A DNA stretch of 64,000 bases, from positions 1,151,315-1,215,314 of the forward strand of contig NZ_JBCNJT010000001.1 in assembly GCF_039596395.1 (NCBI RefSeq). Reading direction: 5' to 3'. Origin of the DNA: Fluviicola sp. GTDB taxonomy: Bacteria; Bacteroidota; Bacteroidia; Flavobacteriales_D; Crocinitomicaceae. Positions 9,291 to 31,456 of the stretch are shown here, one piece after another; the first letter of the stretch is position 1; every line of letters begins with the position of its first letter. Made by a program: the position numbers and the translations under genes. The notes under the pieces were generated by a model. That model was not told the origin of the DNA, did no database searches, and worked only from the letters and a program-made list of their open reading frames with translations.

Positions 9291-10127
9291 ATGACAATTC
9301 TTTTCGGCTGGAACCGTTTCCGACTTAAATCATTCACTTTCCAGGAGTTAAACCTTCCGGAACTCGAACAATTTCCAAATGCAACCTTCCAGGTAGCGCA
9401 ATCTTACTTTCACCTGTTTTACATCCCGGTTTTTCCCATGGGGAAACGTTATGACCTGGTGATGGACAAACAGTTGTACCATGTTCCACCGAGTTTAATG
9501 AAAATGGTAAATCCGGAACAAATTAAGACGCGCGGAAAGTGGTACGCGTGGAGTTTACCGATCCTGGTATTGGCGATATTTCTCGGTATTAAGGTGAGTA
9601 GTTACCTAAAGGAGAGTCAAGCTCATGCAGATGCGATTGAATTGGCTCAGGCGGACCTGAAGTTCTTCGATGACCCGGAGGAGGGAGACCATATCTGGTT
9701 TACAAATGATGTCGATTTGAAATTTGATGCGGAAATATTCATCGTTGGAAAGAAAAAAATAACCTTGTTCGTAAACCTGATGCAACAATTGGATGAATTG
9801 GCACTGGAAAATGCGCGAAACGGAAAAGCATCTGTTGATGCAGATTCCATGCAGGTCCTGATCGACCAGCGAGAGGAATTACTGGATATTTCACCATTCT
9901 ATGATTCTCTTATTCAGGAACATCCTTTTCAACCGGTTTATCGAAGAGTACTTCTTTTTGAATTACACCATTATCCGATTGATTATAAGTTTGTTGAAAT
10001 GACCTACAAGGAGTACGAAGCTTTGAAAAAATCACTGGGAGACGGAGATACGAAAAAAGCGAAGAAAATCAAGATCCCTGCTTTTCATGAAATTACCGGT
10101 CAGGCACTTTTTGTACAGCCTGATTAA
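9291..10127 (+). CDS. Hypothetical single-pass membrane protein
   Basis: This 278-residue protein has no family I can name with confidence. The N-terminal 60 residues (MTILFGWNRFRLK...SYFHLFYIPVFPMGK) resemble the start of small zinc-ribbon membrane proteins, but the zinc-binding cysteines are missing. One transmembrane helix lies at about residues 85-104 (WYAWSLPILVLAIFLGIKV). The rest is a charged soluble domain with a Lys-rich stretch near residue 250. It sits between the palindromic element at 8984-9243 and a remnant of the same element at 10148-10178, so it could be a passenger or simply flanked by chance. No partner gene is evident. Confidence 0.75.
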   Translation: MTILFGWNRFRLKSFTFQELNLPELEQFPNATFQVAQSYFHLFYIPVFPMGKRYDLVMDKQLYHVPPSLMKMVNPEQIKTRGKWYAWSLPILVLAIFLGIKVSSYLKESQAHADAIELAQADLKFFDDPEEGDHIWFTNDVDLKFDAEIFIVGKKKITLFVNLMQQLDELALENARNGKASVDADSMQVLIDQREELLDISPFYDSLIQEHPFQPVYRRVLLFELHHYPIDYKFVEMTYKEYEALKKSLGDGDTKKAKKIKIPAFHEITGQALFVQPD

Positions 10128-26900: not shown

Positions 26901-26961
26901 TTATAAAACACGGGAAGATATTGATGAAAATTCCAACTAATTTGTTAAACTAGCAATCTGA

Positions 26962-28341
26962 ATGGCTACAATTGAACAACTATACCAAACCTTAGACGAG
27001 CGCAGAAGACCAGAAGATGTTGCGGAATTAGTGCAGAAACTTTTGGACGGCTCTTTGACACCTAAAGAAACAGCAATTCTTGAAAAAGCTGCTAAAGGTT
27101 CATTATCCAGGAATGCCTACGGCTATACTTCTATGCTGCAAACTTTTGCTGCGGCACAGGGTGCAGAATCCCAAATTGCCAAGGCTGTTGAGTTGTTTAA
27201 ATTGAATAAAAACGATCAGGCGGATTACAACAACCCGAGAGATATCGAGGATTTTATCCGGGCCGTTTCACCGGTTCTTCACAAAACAGTTGGTGCCAAC
27301 AACTTTATCGGAGATCGATTAAATAAAGAAAAGCGTAAAGAAGCAGGTCTGGATCTGTCGAAACGCAGTTATAATAAAAGATGGCGTTTATTGAAACGCA
27401 TAGAACAAAAATTACAACGGTTTATTGGTGAAACGAAGAAGTCGGAAATCCAAAAAATCGCGAAACACGGCCTGGCACATACGTTAGATTTTGAAAACTT
27501 TTCATCGGACCTGAATACGGCTTGTTTTATTGCTTATTACAATGCCAGATGTAACCTGAGAAGTGTTTTTACAAATCAGAGCCAGGATCGGCCGTTTGAT
27601 GAGATCAGCGAAATGCTTTTGAACAGATGCAGGACTACAGAAACCAAATTCGGGGGACTGTTCCGAAAAACGAAACCGGAAGTTGTTAATACCAATTGGT
27701 GGGCAATCGCTCAGATTTATACTAGCCAGGAAGTATTGTCGTATTTAACGGACGAACAAAAAGGAATGCTCCTGGGAAAATGGACAGGGATTTTACAGGA
27801 AATTGCCGGATTACTCGCAAAAGTCTGGGAAGAAAACGATATAAACAGGCAAACGATGATTGTGAAGAGAGGAAATGATTCTTCGACTTGGAACAATACT
27901 GCCGGAGCATGGAATAAAGCGCGGGACAACTGGATGAACCTGATTTATTCCATGGGACTTGATTTTGTTTTAGAAACAGTTTGTTTTGGAAAAGTTCTGA
28001 GATTGATGGCTGCAGATGTGGTTGCCTGGCATGCCTCAAGTGGTGGCAAACTCGACCCCAATACTCATGTTTGGAATCAATTACCTTTACCATGGGAAGT
28101 TTTTCAGAATAAAGCAGATTGCAATAAAGAACGGGTGATGAAGTGCTGTAAAGAAGCGGGTATTGATGCAGAAAAATCGGGGTGGGTGGCACCAAGAATT
28201 CATGGAATAGCAGCCTTTAAACCGACGCCGGAATTGGTGCATGGAGTTGTTGTTTCCAATCCTTTTTTGGCAACGGTACTTAAAAAGCACAGGTATTTTT
28301 CAGGAAAAAACGGAACGTGGTTTTTCCCAGGAAATAATTAG
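26962..28341 (+). CDS. Protein of unknown function encoded directly upstream of two unusual tRNAs
   Basis: This 459-residue soluble protein matches no family I can name. The N-terminal region is helical (RRPEDVAELVQKLLDGSLTP). A basic helical segment follows at about 115-160, with 'SKRSYNKRWRLLKRIEQKL'. Conserved-looking blocks further on are 'TACFIAYYNARCNLRSVF' near 190, 'KRGNDSSTWNNTAGAWNKA' near 300, 'MAADVVAWHASSGGKLDP' near 350 and 'PTPELVHGVVVSNPFLATVL' near 425. The stop codon TAG (28339-28341) shares its last G with the first base of the first tRNA, so protein and tRNAs must lie on one transcript unless an internal promoter exists. Basic patches would suit RNA binding. I infer a functional link to the tRNAs, with the biochemical role open. 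Confidence 0.8.
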   Translation: MATIEQLYQTLDERRRPEDVAELVQKLLDGSLTPKETAILEKAAKGSLSRNAYGYTSMLQTFAAAQGAESQIAKAVELFKLNKNDQADYNNPRDIEDFIRAVSPVLHKTVGANNFIGDRLNKEKRKEAGLDLSKRSYNKRWRLLKRIEQKLQRFIGETKKSEIQKIAKHGLAHTLDFENFSSDLNTACFIAYYNARCNLRSVFTNQSQDRPFDEISEMLLNRCRTTETKFGGLFRKTKPEVVNTNWWAIAQIYTSQEVLSYLTDEQKGMLLGKWTGILQEIAGLLAKVWEENDINRQTMIVKRGNDSSTWNNTAGAWNKARDNWMNLIYSMGLDFVLETVCFGKVLRLMAADVVAWHASSGGKLDPNTHVWNQLPLPWEVFQNKADCNKERVMKCCKEAGIDAEKSGWVAPRIHGIAAFKPTPELVHGVVVSNPFLATVLKKHRYFSGKNGTWFFPGNN

Positions 28342-28415
28342 GATGAGTTAGCTCAGTGGCAGAGCATCCGGCTCTCGGTCCGGATGGACGCAGGTTCGAG
28401 CCCTGCACTTATCCT
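28341..28415 (+). tRNA. Unusual tRNA: 8-bp acceptor stem, 8-nt anticodon loop (possible Glu-CTC)
   Basis: Stems read by eye. Acceptor: GGATGAGT with ACTTATCC, 8 bp including one G-U. D arm: GCTC/GAGC. Anticodon arm: TCCGG/CCGGA, enclosing an eight-base loop CTCTCGGT. Variable region TGGAC. T arm: GCAGG/CCTGC with loop TTCGAGC. Ten bases precede the D stem instead of nine, and eight follow the T stem instead of seven, so the extra pair is real and not a slip. By alignment with its sister tRNA the anticodon would be CTC (Glu), but the long loop makes this uncertain. No CCA is encoded and the discriminator is T. Confidence 0.75.
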
Positions 28416-28416
28416 G

Positions 28417-28492
28417 GTTCTGATATAGCTCAGTGGTAGAGCACCCGGCTCTTAACCGGGTGGACGCAGGTTCGAGCCCTGTTATCGGAACA
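28417..28492 (+). tRNA. Unusual tRNA: 9-bp acceptor stem, anticodon CTT (Lys-like)
   Basis: Acceptor: GTTCTGATA pairs with TATCGGAAC over 9 bp (one G-U). D arm: GCTC/GAGC. Anticodon arm: CCCGG/CCGGG with the standard seven-base loop CTCTTAA, giving anticodon CTT after T33. Variable region TGGAC. T arm: GCAGG/CCTGT with loop TTCGAGC. The stacked acceptor plus T helix would be 14 bp against the canonical 12. No CCA is encoded and the discriminator is A. The body from the D arm to the T arm is nearly identical to the tRNA one base upstream, so the pair arose by duplication. Confidence 0.75.
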
Positions 28493-28498
28493 ACAAAT

Positions 28499-28529
28499 AA
28501 AGCGATTTGTCTTCGGATGAATCGCTTTT
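28499..28529 (+). terminator. Rho-independent terminator after the tRNA pair
   Basis: AAAGCGATT pairs with AATCGCTTT around a 12-base loop containing TTCGG, and is followed by T residues. It closes the protein-tRNA-tRNA transcript seven bases after the second tRNA. Confidence 0.8.
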
Positions 28530-30064: not shown

Positions 30065-31456
30065 ATGACAGCCGATCAGCGAATACTCTGGGATAAAGCG
30101 AAACAGTTCGATTTGGATCATCCGCCGAGTGAGTACGGTTTTTCAATCCGACTTGCGAAAGAGAATTATTGGACCAAAAGTTTCACCGAACGGGCAATCC
30201 TAGAATACAAGAAATTCATGTTTCTGGCTGCAACTTCCGACATGATGGTTTCGCCTTCCGCTATTGTGGATACAGTTTGGCACCAGCATTTGATTTTTAC
30301 GCAGTCTTACCAGGAATTTTGCACCTTGCTCGGAAAACAGATCCAGCACATTCCTTCTACACACAACCGGGAAGATTTTCAAAAGTTCCGGCAGGCAAAA
30401 GAAAGAACAACTGTTCTCTATGAATCTGTTTTTGGCAAGCAGCCGCATGCGATCTGGCATTACAACGACATGTACGAGAGTTTAAACCTGCAAAAAGCAA
30501 AACTCAAGTTACGAAGCTTCATTATTATCGGAATAGGTGCTTTCATCGTCTTAACAGCTCCGTTTTATTTTTTGCTGAGACCGCTTTACATCACGATTGG
30601 AAATCCTGCCTTTATGCTCGGATTCATCTTTCTCGCAGGCATTACTTTCCTGGTATTGGAACTGTACAACCGGTCGCGGCTTAACCGAATAACCCGTCAG
30701 TTTGATCCGGAATCGTTTGTTTACGAACTACAACCTTATGAATTGATTTACCTCAAAACACAGAAACTTTCAAATGTCATTCATGGCGTAGTGAATGAAC
30801 TGGTTAAAAACAAAACAATCGCCGTTCTCTCAAACAACACGATGGAGCTTTCAAAAAATGGACAGGCAGAATCGATAGAACAGCTTCACGTGACTTCCAT
30901 GTTGAGCCTGCTTGGTCGCACGGTTTACCCGAAACTCATGTACCAGTTGGTCCGGAAACCGCTTTTTGGAAACATTGTTAACAGCATGGAAGCATTTAAG
31001 AAGTATTTCAATAAATCACTGAAATTCGGGAAGTTATTTTACTTCAATTTCAGTGTTCTCGCGGTTCTTTTATTACTGGCTTTCACGCGTTTGACAACCG
31101 GGATTTTGAGAGATAAACCCGTTGTGTTTATTGCAATTACGATCGTTGTTTTAGCCGCACTGATTTACCTTTATCTGAACCGGCTTACGCGGCTTGTTTG
31201 TACTAAGACCATTCCCGGCAGGTACCGGGAAGAGATTGTACCGACGCTGCATGATAAGAATAGTCCGGCATGGAGGTATTTCCTGTTGGGATCGGCCGTT
31301 TTAACAGCATCACTGGCAACCCTGATTGATTACTTCAACAATTCAAACTCAATTGGTGGCAGCGGAACTTCCGATATGGGAGGTGGCTGCGGAAGCAGTT
31401 GCGGTAGTTCTTGCAGCAGTTGCGGCGGCTGCGGCGGTTCTGGGGGAGGAGATTAA
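30065..31456 (+). CDS. TIGR04222/glycine-rich-domain-like membrane protein with Cys/Gly-rich tail
   Basis: This 463-residue protein has an N-terminal soluble part (1-145) containing 'PSAIVDTVWHQHLIFTQSYQEFC', the H-x3-H / Y-x3-C pattern of glycine-rich-domain-like proteins. Four TM helices follow at about 155-175, 180-200, 325-345 and 355-375, plus a last one near 410-425. It ends in a low-complexity tail of Gly, Ser and Cys (GGCGSSCGSSCSSCGGCGG). These features fit the TIGR04222 membrane group; the function is unknown. The tail might bind metal or be secreted and cross-linked. The next membrane protein gene starts 47 bases downstream. A weak -7 box, TAACTTCG, lies upstream. Confidence 0.75.
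   Translation: MTADQRILWDKAKQFDLDHPPSEYGFSIRLAKENYWTKSFTERAILEYKKFMFLAATSDMMVSPSAIVDTVWHQHLIFTQSYQEFCTLLGKQIQHIPSTHNREDFQKFRQAKERTTVLYESVFGKQPHAIWHYNDMYESLNLQKAKLKLRSFIIIGIGAFIVLTAPFYFLLRPLYITIGNPAFMLGFIFLAGITFLVLELYNRSRLNRITRQFDPESFVYELQPYELIYLKTQKLSNVIHGVVNELVKNKTIAVLSNNTMELSKNGQAESIEQLHVTSMLSLLGRTVYPKLMYQLVRKPLFGNIVNSMEAFKKYFNKSLKFGKLFYFNFSVLAVLLLLAFTRLTTGILRDKPVVFIAITIVVLAALIYLYLNRLTRLVCTKTIPGRYREEIVPTLHDKNSPAWRYFLLGSAVLTASLATLIDYFNNSNSIGGSGTSDMGGGCGSSCGSSCSSCGGCGGSGGGD

Follow-up and report, generated by a model that had tools for sequence, protein, structure and literature searches.

RNAs that fold as a cloverleaf are usually read as adaptors of translation, and odd ones tend to be shelved as untyped tRNAs or pseudogenes. 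In type III toxin-antitoxin systems a protein is encoded beside its own structured RNA. The features of Ro60 and its bacterial counterpart Rsr include Y RNA binding and the tethering of PNPase, and Ro60 has a C-terminal alpha/beta domain of the vWA kind. Burroughs and Aravind (2016) reportedly associated an SPFH/Band-7 scaffold with a "novel tRNA-like molecule". In the excerpts of PMC8394870 and PMC7824862, Rsr (a TROVE protein) has an RNA of its own, the Y RNA YrlA, which bears a tRNA-like part; in YrlA, D, T and acceptor arms are combined with a large stem (PMC8394870, excerpt). The tRNA-Lys of phage T5, with an altered anticodon stem-loop, evades the tRNA-cutting defence PARIS (PMC11455837, excerpt). 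Here we analyse a stretch of 64,000 nucleotides from Fluviicola sp. (RefSeq assembly GCF_039596395.1, contig NZ_JBCNJT010000001.1, positions 1,151,315 to 1,215,314; hereafter the window), in which the gene for a 459-residue protein runs directly into two tRNA-like RNAs. The comparisons below suggest that gene and RNAs probably constitute a two-part ribonucleoprotein (RNP) module, whose protein would bind the adjoining one to four tRNA-shaped RNAs and work only with them.

The protein gene occupies 26962..28341 on the forward strand (459 amino acids, start ATG, stop TAG at 28339-28341), where the initial annotation had placed it, and its product belongs to an unnamed, mostly helical family. Two tRNA-like RNAs follow on the same strand, RNA 1 at 28341..28414 and RNA 2 at 28418..28490, both found by ARAGORN and by the Rfam model RF00005 (56.6 and 70.3 bits, respectively), RNA 1 also with cloverleaf covariation. 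ARAGORN gives 28341-28415 for the first, of unknown type with a four-base "anticodon" ctcg, and 28419-28491 for the second, formally Lys CTT. On these calls the RNAs are separated by three bases rather than the one reported previously. The stop codon does share one base with the first RNA, as had been noted, because the stop G precedes the 7-bp acceptor stem and, as base -1, can pair with base 73; the acceptor stem of RNA 1 has 8 bp when this G:C pair -1:73 is counted. The two bodies, earlier called near-identical, are alike in their D, anticodon and T arms but differ in their acceptor stems, with 54 of 72 aligned columns identical. Both had also been taken to depart from canonical geometry, which holds for RNA 1 with its 8-nt anticodon loop (CTCTCGGT, 28372-28379) but not for RNA 2, whose loop has the normal 7 nt (CTCTTAA, 28449-28455). 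Each carries the signature GGCTC, formed by the last two bases of the 5' anticodon-stem strand and C32, U33 and C34 (28370..28374 in RNA 1, 28447..28451 in RNA 2, both forward). The genome itself (4.64 Mb, 5 contigs) has 39 Rfam tRNA matches including these two. When the pair was compared with 36 other distinct host tRNAs, none of these was as similar to either RNA as RNA 1 and RNA 2 are to one another.

An intact tRNA-like RNA stands beside the gene in 43 of 44 compared records, down to 30% protein identity. These records (the window, L003-L024, L027-L033, L163-L168 and L170-L177) span Bacteroidota, one acidobacterium, Streptomyces and Miltoncostaea plasmids and 14 viral contigs of up to 436 kb, and include three incomplete genes (L023, frameshifted; L024 and L177, without a start). 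Kept outside the 44 were duplicates (L001, L002, L154-L162, L178 and part of L034-L063), the rest of L034-L063, which belongs to the Chryseobacterium genus count, the broken or cut L025 and L169, the Chryseobacterium stubs without RNA, which are broken copies, and L026, though it has two RNAs too. The linked records contribute 75 RNAs, of which 66 are distinct, and in each record the intact cloverleaves number one to four and begin no more than about 320 bases away; with membership defined as the protein core plus at least one GGCTC cloverleaf within about 320 bases, the same 43 of 44 belong. The initial annotation had proposed a functional unit of protein and atypical tRNAs, against which homologues generally lying apart from tRNAs would have spoken; linkage across phyla, plasmids and viral contigs, together with the co-occurrence counts given below, strongly supports the unit, and by those counts the adjacency is far beyond chance.

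ARAGORN alone found an adjoining tRNA-like gene at 23/25, 7/8, 26/30, 7/9 and 7/8 loci in five overlapping sets. Its misses comprise broken or cut genes (L025, L061-L063, L158), a chimeric RNA, apparently a recombinant of the two copies (L015 = L042), RNAs recovered by our model R1 (L160, 32.1 bits; L171, 62.9 and 50.9 bits) and the Miltoncostaea RNA, which lies 37 bases upstream of the gene and was found by reading and by R1 (44.8 bits). The RNAs are downstream of the gene in most records and upstream in L033, L167, L170, L171, L174 and L176; L166 has them on both sides, one of its four with a CAT anticodon. Protein and RNA overlap further in several members: the stop TAG forms bases 8-10 of the first RNA in L163, L164 and L165, as does TAA in L022, so that in these four the protein stop coincides with the conserved U8-A9-R10 of the RNA, and in L172 the stop TAG is bases 1-3. 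Excision of such an RNA would remove the stop, and therefore one transcript could act either as message or as RNA source.

The RNAs were also sought with the pattern GGCTCN{3,6}CCNNNNNGNCNNAGGTTCGA, which matches CAT-anticodon tRNAs (GGCTCAT) as well; these were set aside. Among 395 Bacteroidota genomes the remaining matches occur in two, exactly the two with the protein, and 393 have neither (CAT matches only, 109 genomes). In the Chryseobacterium set 28 of 148 genomes have matches, 27 with a full or near-full gene plus G561 (CAT matches only, 5 genomes), while the 28th full or near-full gene, in G567, runs off its contig. The pattern accompanies 27/27 genes with a sequenced 3' end and occurs in 0/116 gene-less genomes. 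Two of the 27 are defective, G670 with a chimeric RNA and G608 with a frameshifted gene (L023 = L060) that keeps both RNAs. In G561, residues 40-427 (numbering of the 436-aa L012) are replaced by other genes and both RNAs are intact (95.7 and 86.7 bits). The replacing cassette (L141, 1033-5378) has an HTH gene and open reading frames (ORFs) that by eye resemble a modified-peptide cluster. Only an N-terminal stub is left in G550, G558 and G592, where no RNA was found, and Prevotella L025, a broken copy with two stops in the matched stretch, has no RNA either. One of two RNAs is lost or decayed while the other remains in L054, L058 and L059. No gene among the 44 records has its 3' end but no remnant of an RNA, and the sole one without any intact RNA is L015, with its chimera.

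These losses also suit the strongest rival explanation, a toxin-antitoxin system in which the protein would attack or sequester tRNA, or otherwise hit translation, and its own tRNA-like RNAs would neutralise it as decoys. The gene is found without intact RNA just once in 44, the RNAs persist without an intact gene in G561 and beside the frameshifted G608 copy, the stubs and L025 have neither a working gene nor an RNA, and the distribution is patchy and mobile. The same pattern of loss, however, fits any obligate RNP. In addition, the protein is long (459 aa) and strongly conserved (mean column identity 58% over 14 rows spanning phyla) and matches no toxin family or fold. Known RNA antitoxins are short repeats, whereas the RNA here is a full cloverleaf. 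The likeness to type III toxin-antitoxin systems thus lies in a protein gene beside its own structured RNA, and the differences in the cloverleaf, its usual position 3' of the gene and the lack of a toxin family match. We therefore regard a toxin-antitoxin function as unlikely, though it deserves to be kept in mind.

The cloverleaf is supported by covariation. In an alignment of 33 RNAs (A4) the 21 pairs are formed in 99.9% of cells, with 150 double-change cells over 14 pairs; in 500 shuffles the pairing, the double changes and the covariation score always stayed below the observed values, 21 of the 500 attained the observed number of pair types, and structures slid along the alignment pair in 33-47%. 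With viral rows and the -1:73 pair added (A7), 98.5% are paired and 191 double-change cells fall over 16 pairs; 0/500 shuffles were as high on four measures and 5/500 on the number of pairs. The -1:73 pair forms in 26 of the 33 A7 rows, as C:G, U:A, A:U, G:C and U:G, and in 51 of the 66 distinct RNAs against 25.0 expected by shuffling (0/10000 as high, kinship ignored), more commonly in the first RNA of a locus (35/40) than in later ones (16/26). As a unique mark of the family this pairing is weakened by ordinary tRNAs, which pair there in 41 of 81 cases, mostly as U:A (84 were taken and 3 without a clear acceptor stem dropped; the control still held a few family RNAs with three-base anticodons). 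Only the covariation at -1:73 is telling, since ordinary tRNAs also pair at this position.

The D and T loops are canonical in most A4 rows, so the L shape should form; a few viral RNAs (L171, L173, L175, L177) are unusual in the D or T arm. What is conserved of the anticodon arm is GG-CUC ... CC; the remainder of the loop varies in sequence and length, with 8 nt in 42 of the distinct RNAs, 7 nt in 12, 9 nt in 10 and 6 and 14 nt in one each. GGCTC is invariant in 33/33 rows of both A4 and A7, by construction in the output of a finder that requires the motif; R1 was trained on rows that carry it, while ARAGORN and Rfam do not require it, and ARAGORN also called most of the aligned RNAs. A DNA pattern for the RNA gave no match in the viral contigs because it required CCGG stems, which most viral RNAs do not have. 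For RNA 1 the 3' D strand could conceivably pair with the loop GCTC instead, but this hairpin was rejected, as D-stem variants with GAAC cannot form it. In the 37 register 35 of the 66 distinct RNAs have a pyrimidine and 31 a purine, whereas a purine follows the anticodon, as placed by ARAGORN, in 35 of the 36 other host tRNAs. The exception is a Leu TAG from an odd low-scoring cluster, and one of the 36 was called with a two-base anticodon. In the window genome a group of four tRNA matches of 37-61 bits (G000:C1:215912-216592, locus L095) has Gln, Pro and Leu calls and one member stretched to 123 bases, and is possibly a mobile element.

A second explanation takes the RNAs for decoding or reprogramming tRNAs, readers of four bases or of shifted frames, with the protein as their dedicated modifying or charging enzyme. 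The 8-9 nt loops of 52 of the 66 distinct RNAs, the four-base anticodons that ARAGORN assigns to many and the tRNA arrays that adjoin some viral copies are in keeping with it, but loop length and sequence change freely (6, 7, 8, 9, 14 nt), a pyrimidine often fills register 37, and base 73 is variable and changes together with base -1. A CTT tRNA would not be needed in a host whose own tRNAs include Lys TTT, Gln TTG and Glu TTC, and the protein matches no synthetase or modifying enzyme. As a set the RNAs do not combine the 7-nt loop and purine 37 of ordinary decoding; of the window pair RNA 2 on its own has both and RNA 1 does not. Ordinary decoding therefore appears unlikely, since the loop keeps only CUC after GG, runs from 6 to 14 nt and often has no purine 37. 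With such variable loops decoding or reprogramming is the less likely reading, and we consider it improbable; the decoding end seems to be the part of the molecule released from constraint.

For the protein itself, neither Pfam (window protein, E up to 0.01) nor NCBIfam and PHROGs yielded anything above chance, 17 aligned relatives run one by one against Pfam at E up to 1 had scattered weak matches (best 0.0028, in one member), and three members had no match in PADLOC-DB at E up to 1. When solved structures were searched by sequence, only Aster-C came up, and this relationship was dropped because its E of 0.5 is at chance level. Two AlphaFold models were made, the first from 17 alignment rows (pLDDT 74.7) and the second from 22 rows with viral relatives added (pLDDT 84.7, pTM 0.83). 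The predicted fold is nearly all helix, with only two 3-residue strands by DSSP. Foldseek found no fold match in the PDB with either model (best E 0.64 and 0.61), while in BFVD uncharacterised proteins of Edafosvirus and Yasminevirus (A0A3G4ZSE3 and A0A5K0U9D9) share the fold, with E of 3.7e-13 and 2.2e-11, TM 0.63 and 15-17% identity. The initial annotation had suggested a protein that modifies, repairs or decoys tRNA, or reprogramming of translation; none of the family, fold or structure-sequence searches makes the protein a known tRNA-modifying or repair enzyme.

Its invariant or nearly invariant polar residues include R119, D306, W310, N311, K344 and R347, and these with others could form a site, as expected of a tRNA-using enzyme that modifies the RNAs or takes an amino acid from them for a product or signal. 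Dedicated substrates encoded beside their enzyme are known elsewhere. Against such an enzyme stand the lack of any enzyme fold match and of a conserved biosynthetic neighbour, and we hold it to be quite improbable, a little more so than decoding.

The described systems can now be set against the locus. An adjacent RNA with a tRNA-like part, a feature of Ro60/Rsr, is shared by the present family, but unlike YrlA its RNAs keep a full cloverleaf with an anticodon arm. The TROVE domain (PF05731) has no match in 17 members at E up to 1. TROVE proteins occur in 7 of 99 genomes, and comparison of our profile A2 with four of them, aligned for the purpose, gave an hhalign probability of 0.1%, that is, no relation. 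A vWA domain is not expected either, because the predicted model is almost without strands. On this evidence protein and RNAs may work somewhat as the Rsr-Y RNA pair does without being one. Two TROVE loci of Bacteroidota (L136 in G186 and L137 in G200) themselves have two tRNA-like RNAs about 150 and 320 bases downstream; those of L136 lie at 2601-2670 and 2764-2850, and the latter spans 87 bases and has tata as its four-base "anticodon". The SPFH/Band-7 system would likewise pair a scaffold protein with its own tRNA-like RNA, but no Band-7 match appeared in 17 members at E up to 1 and the model is almost all helix, so identity with that scaffold was rejected. The likeness to tmRNA-SmpB is again that of a tRNA-like RNA with a dedicated protein; ARAGORN called no tmRNA in the window or the homologue loci scanned, and by Pfam the protein is unrelated to SmpB. 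With T5 tRNA-Lys the RNAs share an altered anticodon stem-loop, carriage by phages and, possibly, a conflict over tRNA (PMC11455837, excerpt). Tied to one protein, and with a loop that is not conserved for decoding, the present RNAs differ from T5-type tRNAs, which take over decoding from the cut host tRNA.

In the libraries searched, no described kind accommodates either the protein family or the RNA set, and the pair was for this reason judged to be of a new kind. No title or abstract opening in the literature covered describes it; Burroughs and Aravind 2016 lies outside that coverage, and we do not claim that the pair is absent from print. The main threat to the judgement that the pair is of a new kind is the tRNA-like RNA named in that paper, which may be the same as the present ones.

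The family is patchily distributed. A homologue occurs in 1 of 148 other relatives searched, in one other of 394 sampled Bacteroidota genomes and in 1 of 199 Acidobacteriota genomes, that one being the centre genome itself; the genome collection has 23 homologue loci. In the genus of C. oranimense, Chryseobacterium, 32 of 148 genomes have it, 28 in full or nearly so and 4 as N-terminal stubs. Seven of 72,556 plasmids carry a homologue (Hymenobacter 1, Streptomyces 5, Miltoncostaea 1) and none of 50,697 named phages does. In contigs labelled viral by IMG/VR, the label on which their viral status rests, profile A1 found no loci, A2 9 and A6 16, two of them identical in sequence. The tree groups the acidobacterium with the Hymenobacter plasmid and Sphingobacterium with a Fluviicola genome (support 100/97 each), although 9 of the 27 internal branches are left open and the tree has two very long rows; these pairings across lineages indicate that the gene moves between them. 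The downstream SIMPL gene is present in 8 of 13 congeners; in all 8, the 1.5 kb ahead of SIMPL lack both the protein and the three genes upstream of it, which marks the region as variable but does not define a clean site of insertion. A chance neighbourhood, with the gene inserted beside ordinary tRNA genes, which are common integration sites, can be dismissed, as the RNAs accompany the gene in several phyla, are absent without it in the two samples tested (the Chryseobacterium and Bacteroidota counts already refute it) and, in the window, resemble each other more than any other host tRNA.

Around the unit, a 13-bp hairpin like an intrinsic terminator lies at 28499..28528 (forward), 7 bases past RNA 2 as predicted earlier; it is a consensus match only, in a region where the scan of both strands found 6 terminators against 2.4 expected from shuffles. 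A possible, weak promoter at 26921..26944 (forward; TTG ... TAATTTG) was picked by eye against what we take to be the Bacteroidota consensus, and the sigma-70 scan of the region gave 3 sites against 5.0 expected. The window neighbours include a GNAT, a weak LRR match, an SseB/TPR protein and a SIMPL protein. At 30065-31456 lies a 463-aa membrane-like protein without a Pfam match, whose C-terminal tail is rich in Gly and Cys (CGSSCGSSCSSCGGCGG). Across 31 loci the only flanking ORF clusters in common reflect local synteny or ORFs antisense to the gene, and 20 flanking proteins belong to unrelated Pfam families, including Imm35, DUF2262 (twice), DUF6000 and a YhcG-type nuclease. On viral contigs the neighbours include radical SAM proteins, a metallophosphoesterase, nucleases and a Thg1-like enzyme, none of them constant; of 18 flanking proteins there, 11 had a PHROG match, of mixed kinds. 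The Thg1-like tRNA-His guanylyltransferase lies two genes upstream on a viral contig (L163, 4235-4927, E 3.3e-23). Thg1 adds base -1, which in the tRNA-like RNAs tends to be paired with base 73. Another viral contig (L164) has an array of 17 other tRNAs in the stretch examined. The Miltoncostaea oceani plasmid (L033, 7367-11311) has two annotated peptidyl-tRNA hydrolases and an RNA ligase family protein within 5 kb, and an additional weak tRNA-like match (9965-10037, 38.2 bits). No RNA-repair operon (RtcB, RtcA or other RNA ligase) was seen among the window neighbours scanned and no conserved cluster of this kind at the 31 loci; on one plasmid an annotated RNA ligase lies about 4.5 kb from the gene.

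We return to the two-part RNP module, which is the simplest account because the gene is not seen without RNA save in one chimera, one of the RNAs can decay and no other gene is needed. The RNAs would be cut from the transcript by the normal tRNA enzymes and held as cofactor by the nearly all-helical protein, presenting the tRNA body (the acceptor/T portion and the D/T elbow) without a decoding anticodon. That the anticodon loop is free to vary speaks against decoding, and the intact elbow and acceptor suggest that the tRNA shape is what is used. The complex may act in conflicts over tRNA, as bait or sensor for tRNA-attacking enzymes, which is the step we are least sure of. A role in conflicts is suggested by the presence on plasmids and viral contigs and the absence from most relatives, and a role directed at tRNA would explain why the module sits on plasmids and large viral contigs, some with tRNA arrays. 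It is at best a fair guess, prompted by the phage tRNA whose altered anticodon stem-loop evades defence (PMC11455837, excerpt).

Several observations weigh against the module as drawn here. The protein has no fold match among solved structures and no PADLOC match; RNA 2 of the window, with its 7-nt loop, CUU and A37, could still decode AAG, and 7-nt loops occur in 12 of the 66 distinct RNAs. The frameshifted L023 = L060 keeps both RNAs, and RNA without a working protein is therefore tolerated. The neighbours hold no consistent defence or repair gene, so that the conflict role is argued from distribution, and RNA binding and function are both inferred.

The wider proposition appears evenly balanced to us: an undescribed class of RNP with one fold in bacteria, plasmids, large phages and, by fold, giant viruses would come equipped with non-decoding tRNAs that serve as its integral cofactor, the stop lying inside the first RNA in some members, and would use the tRNA shape to sense, shield or seize tRNA-handling enzymes and ribosomes during infection. 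A lineage of odd cloverleaf RNAs is tied to one unknown protein in bacteria, plasmids and viral contigs. If the proposal is true, one more RNP would join the short list of those that use the tRNA shape for a purpose other than decoding, and the family would offer a compact and testable system for asking why large phages and giant viruses are so rich in tRNA machinery.

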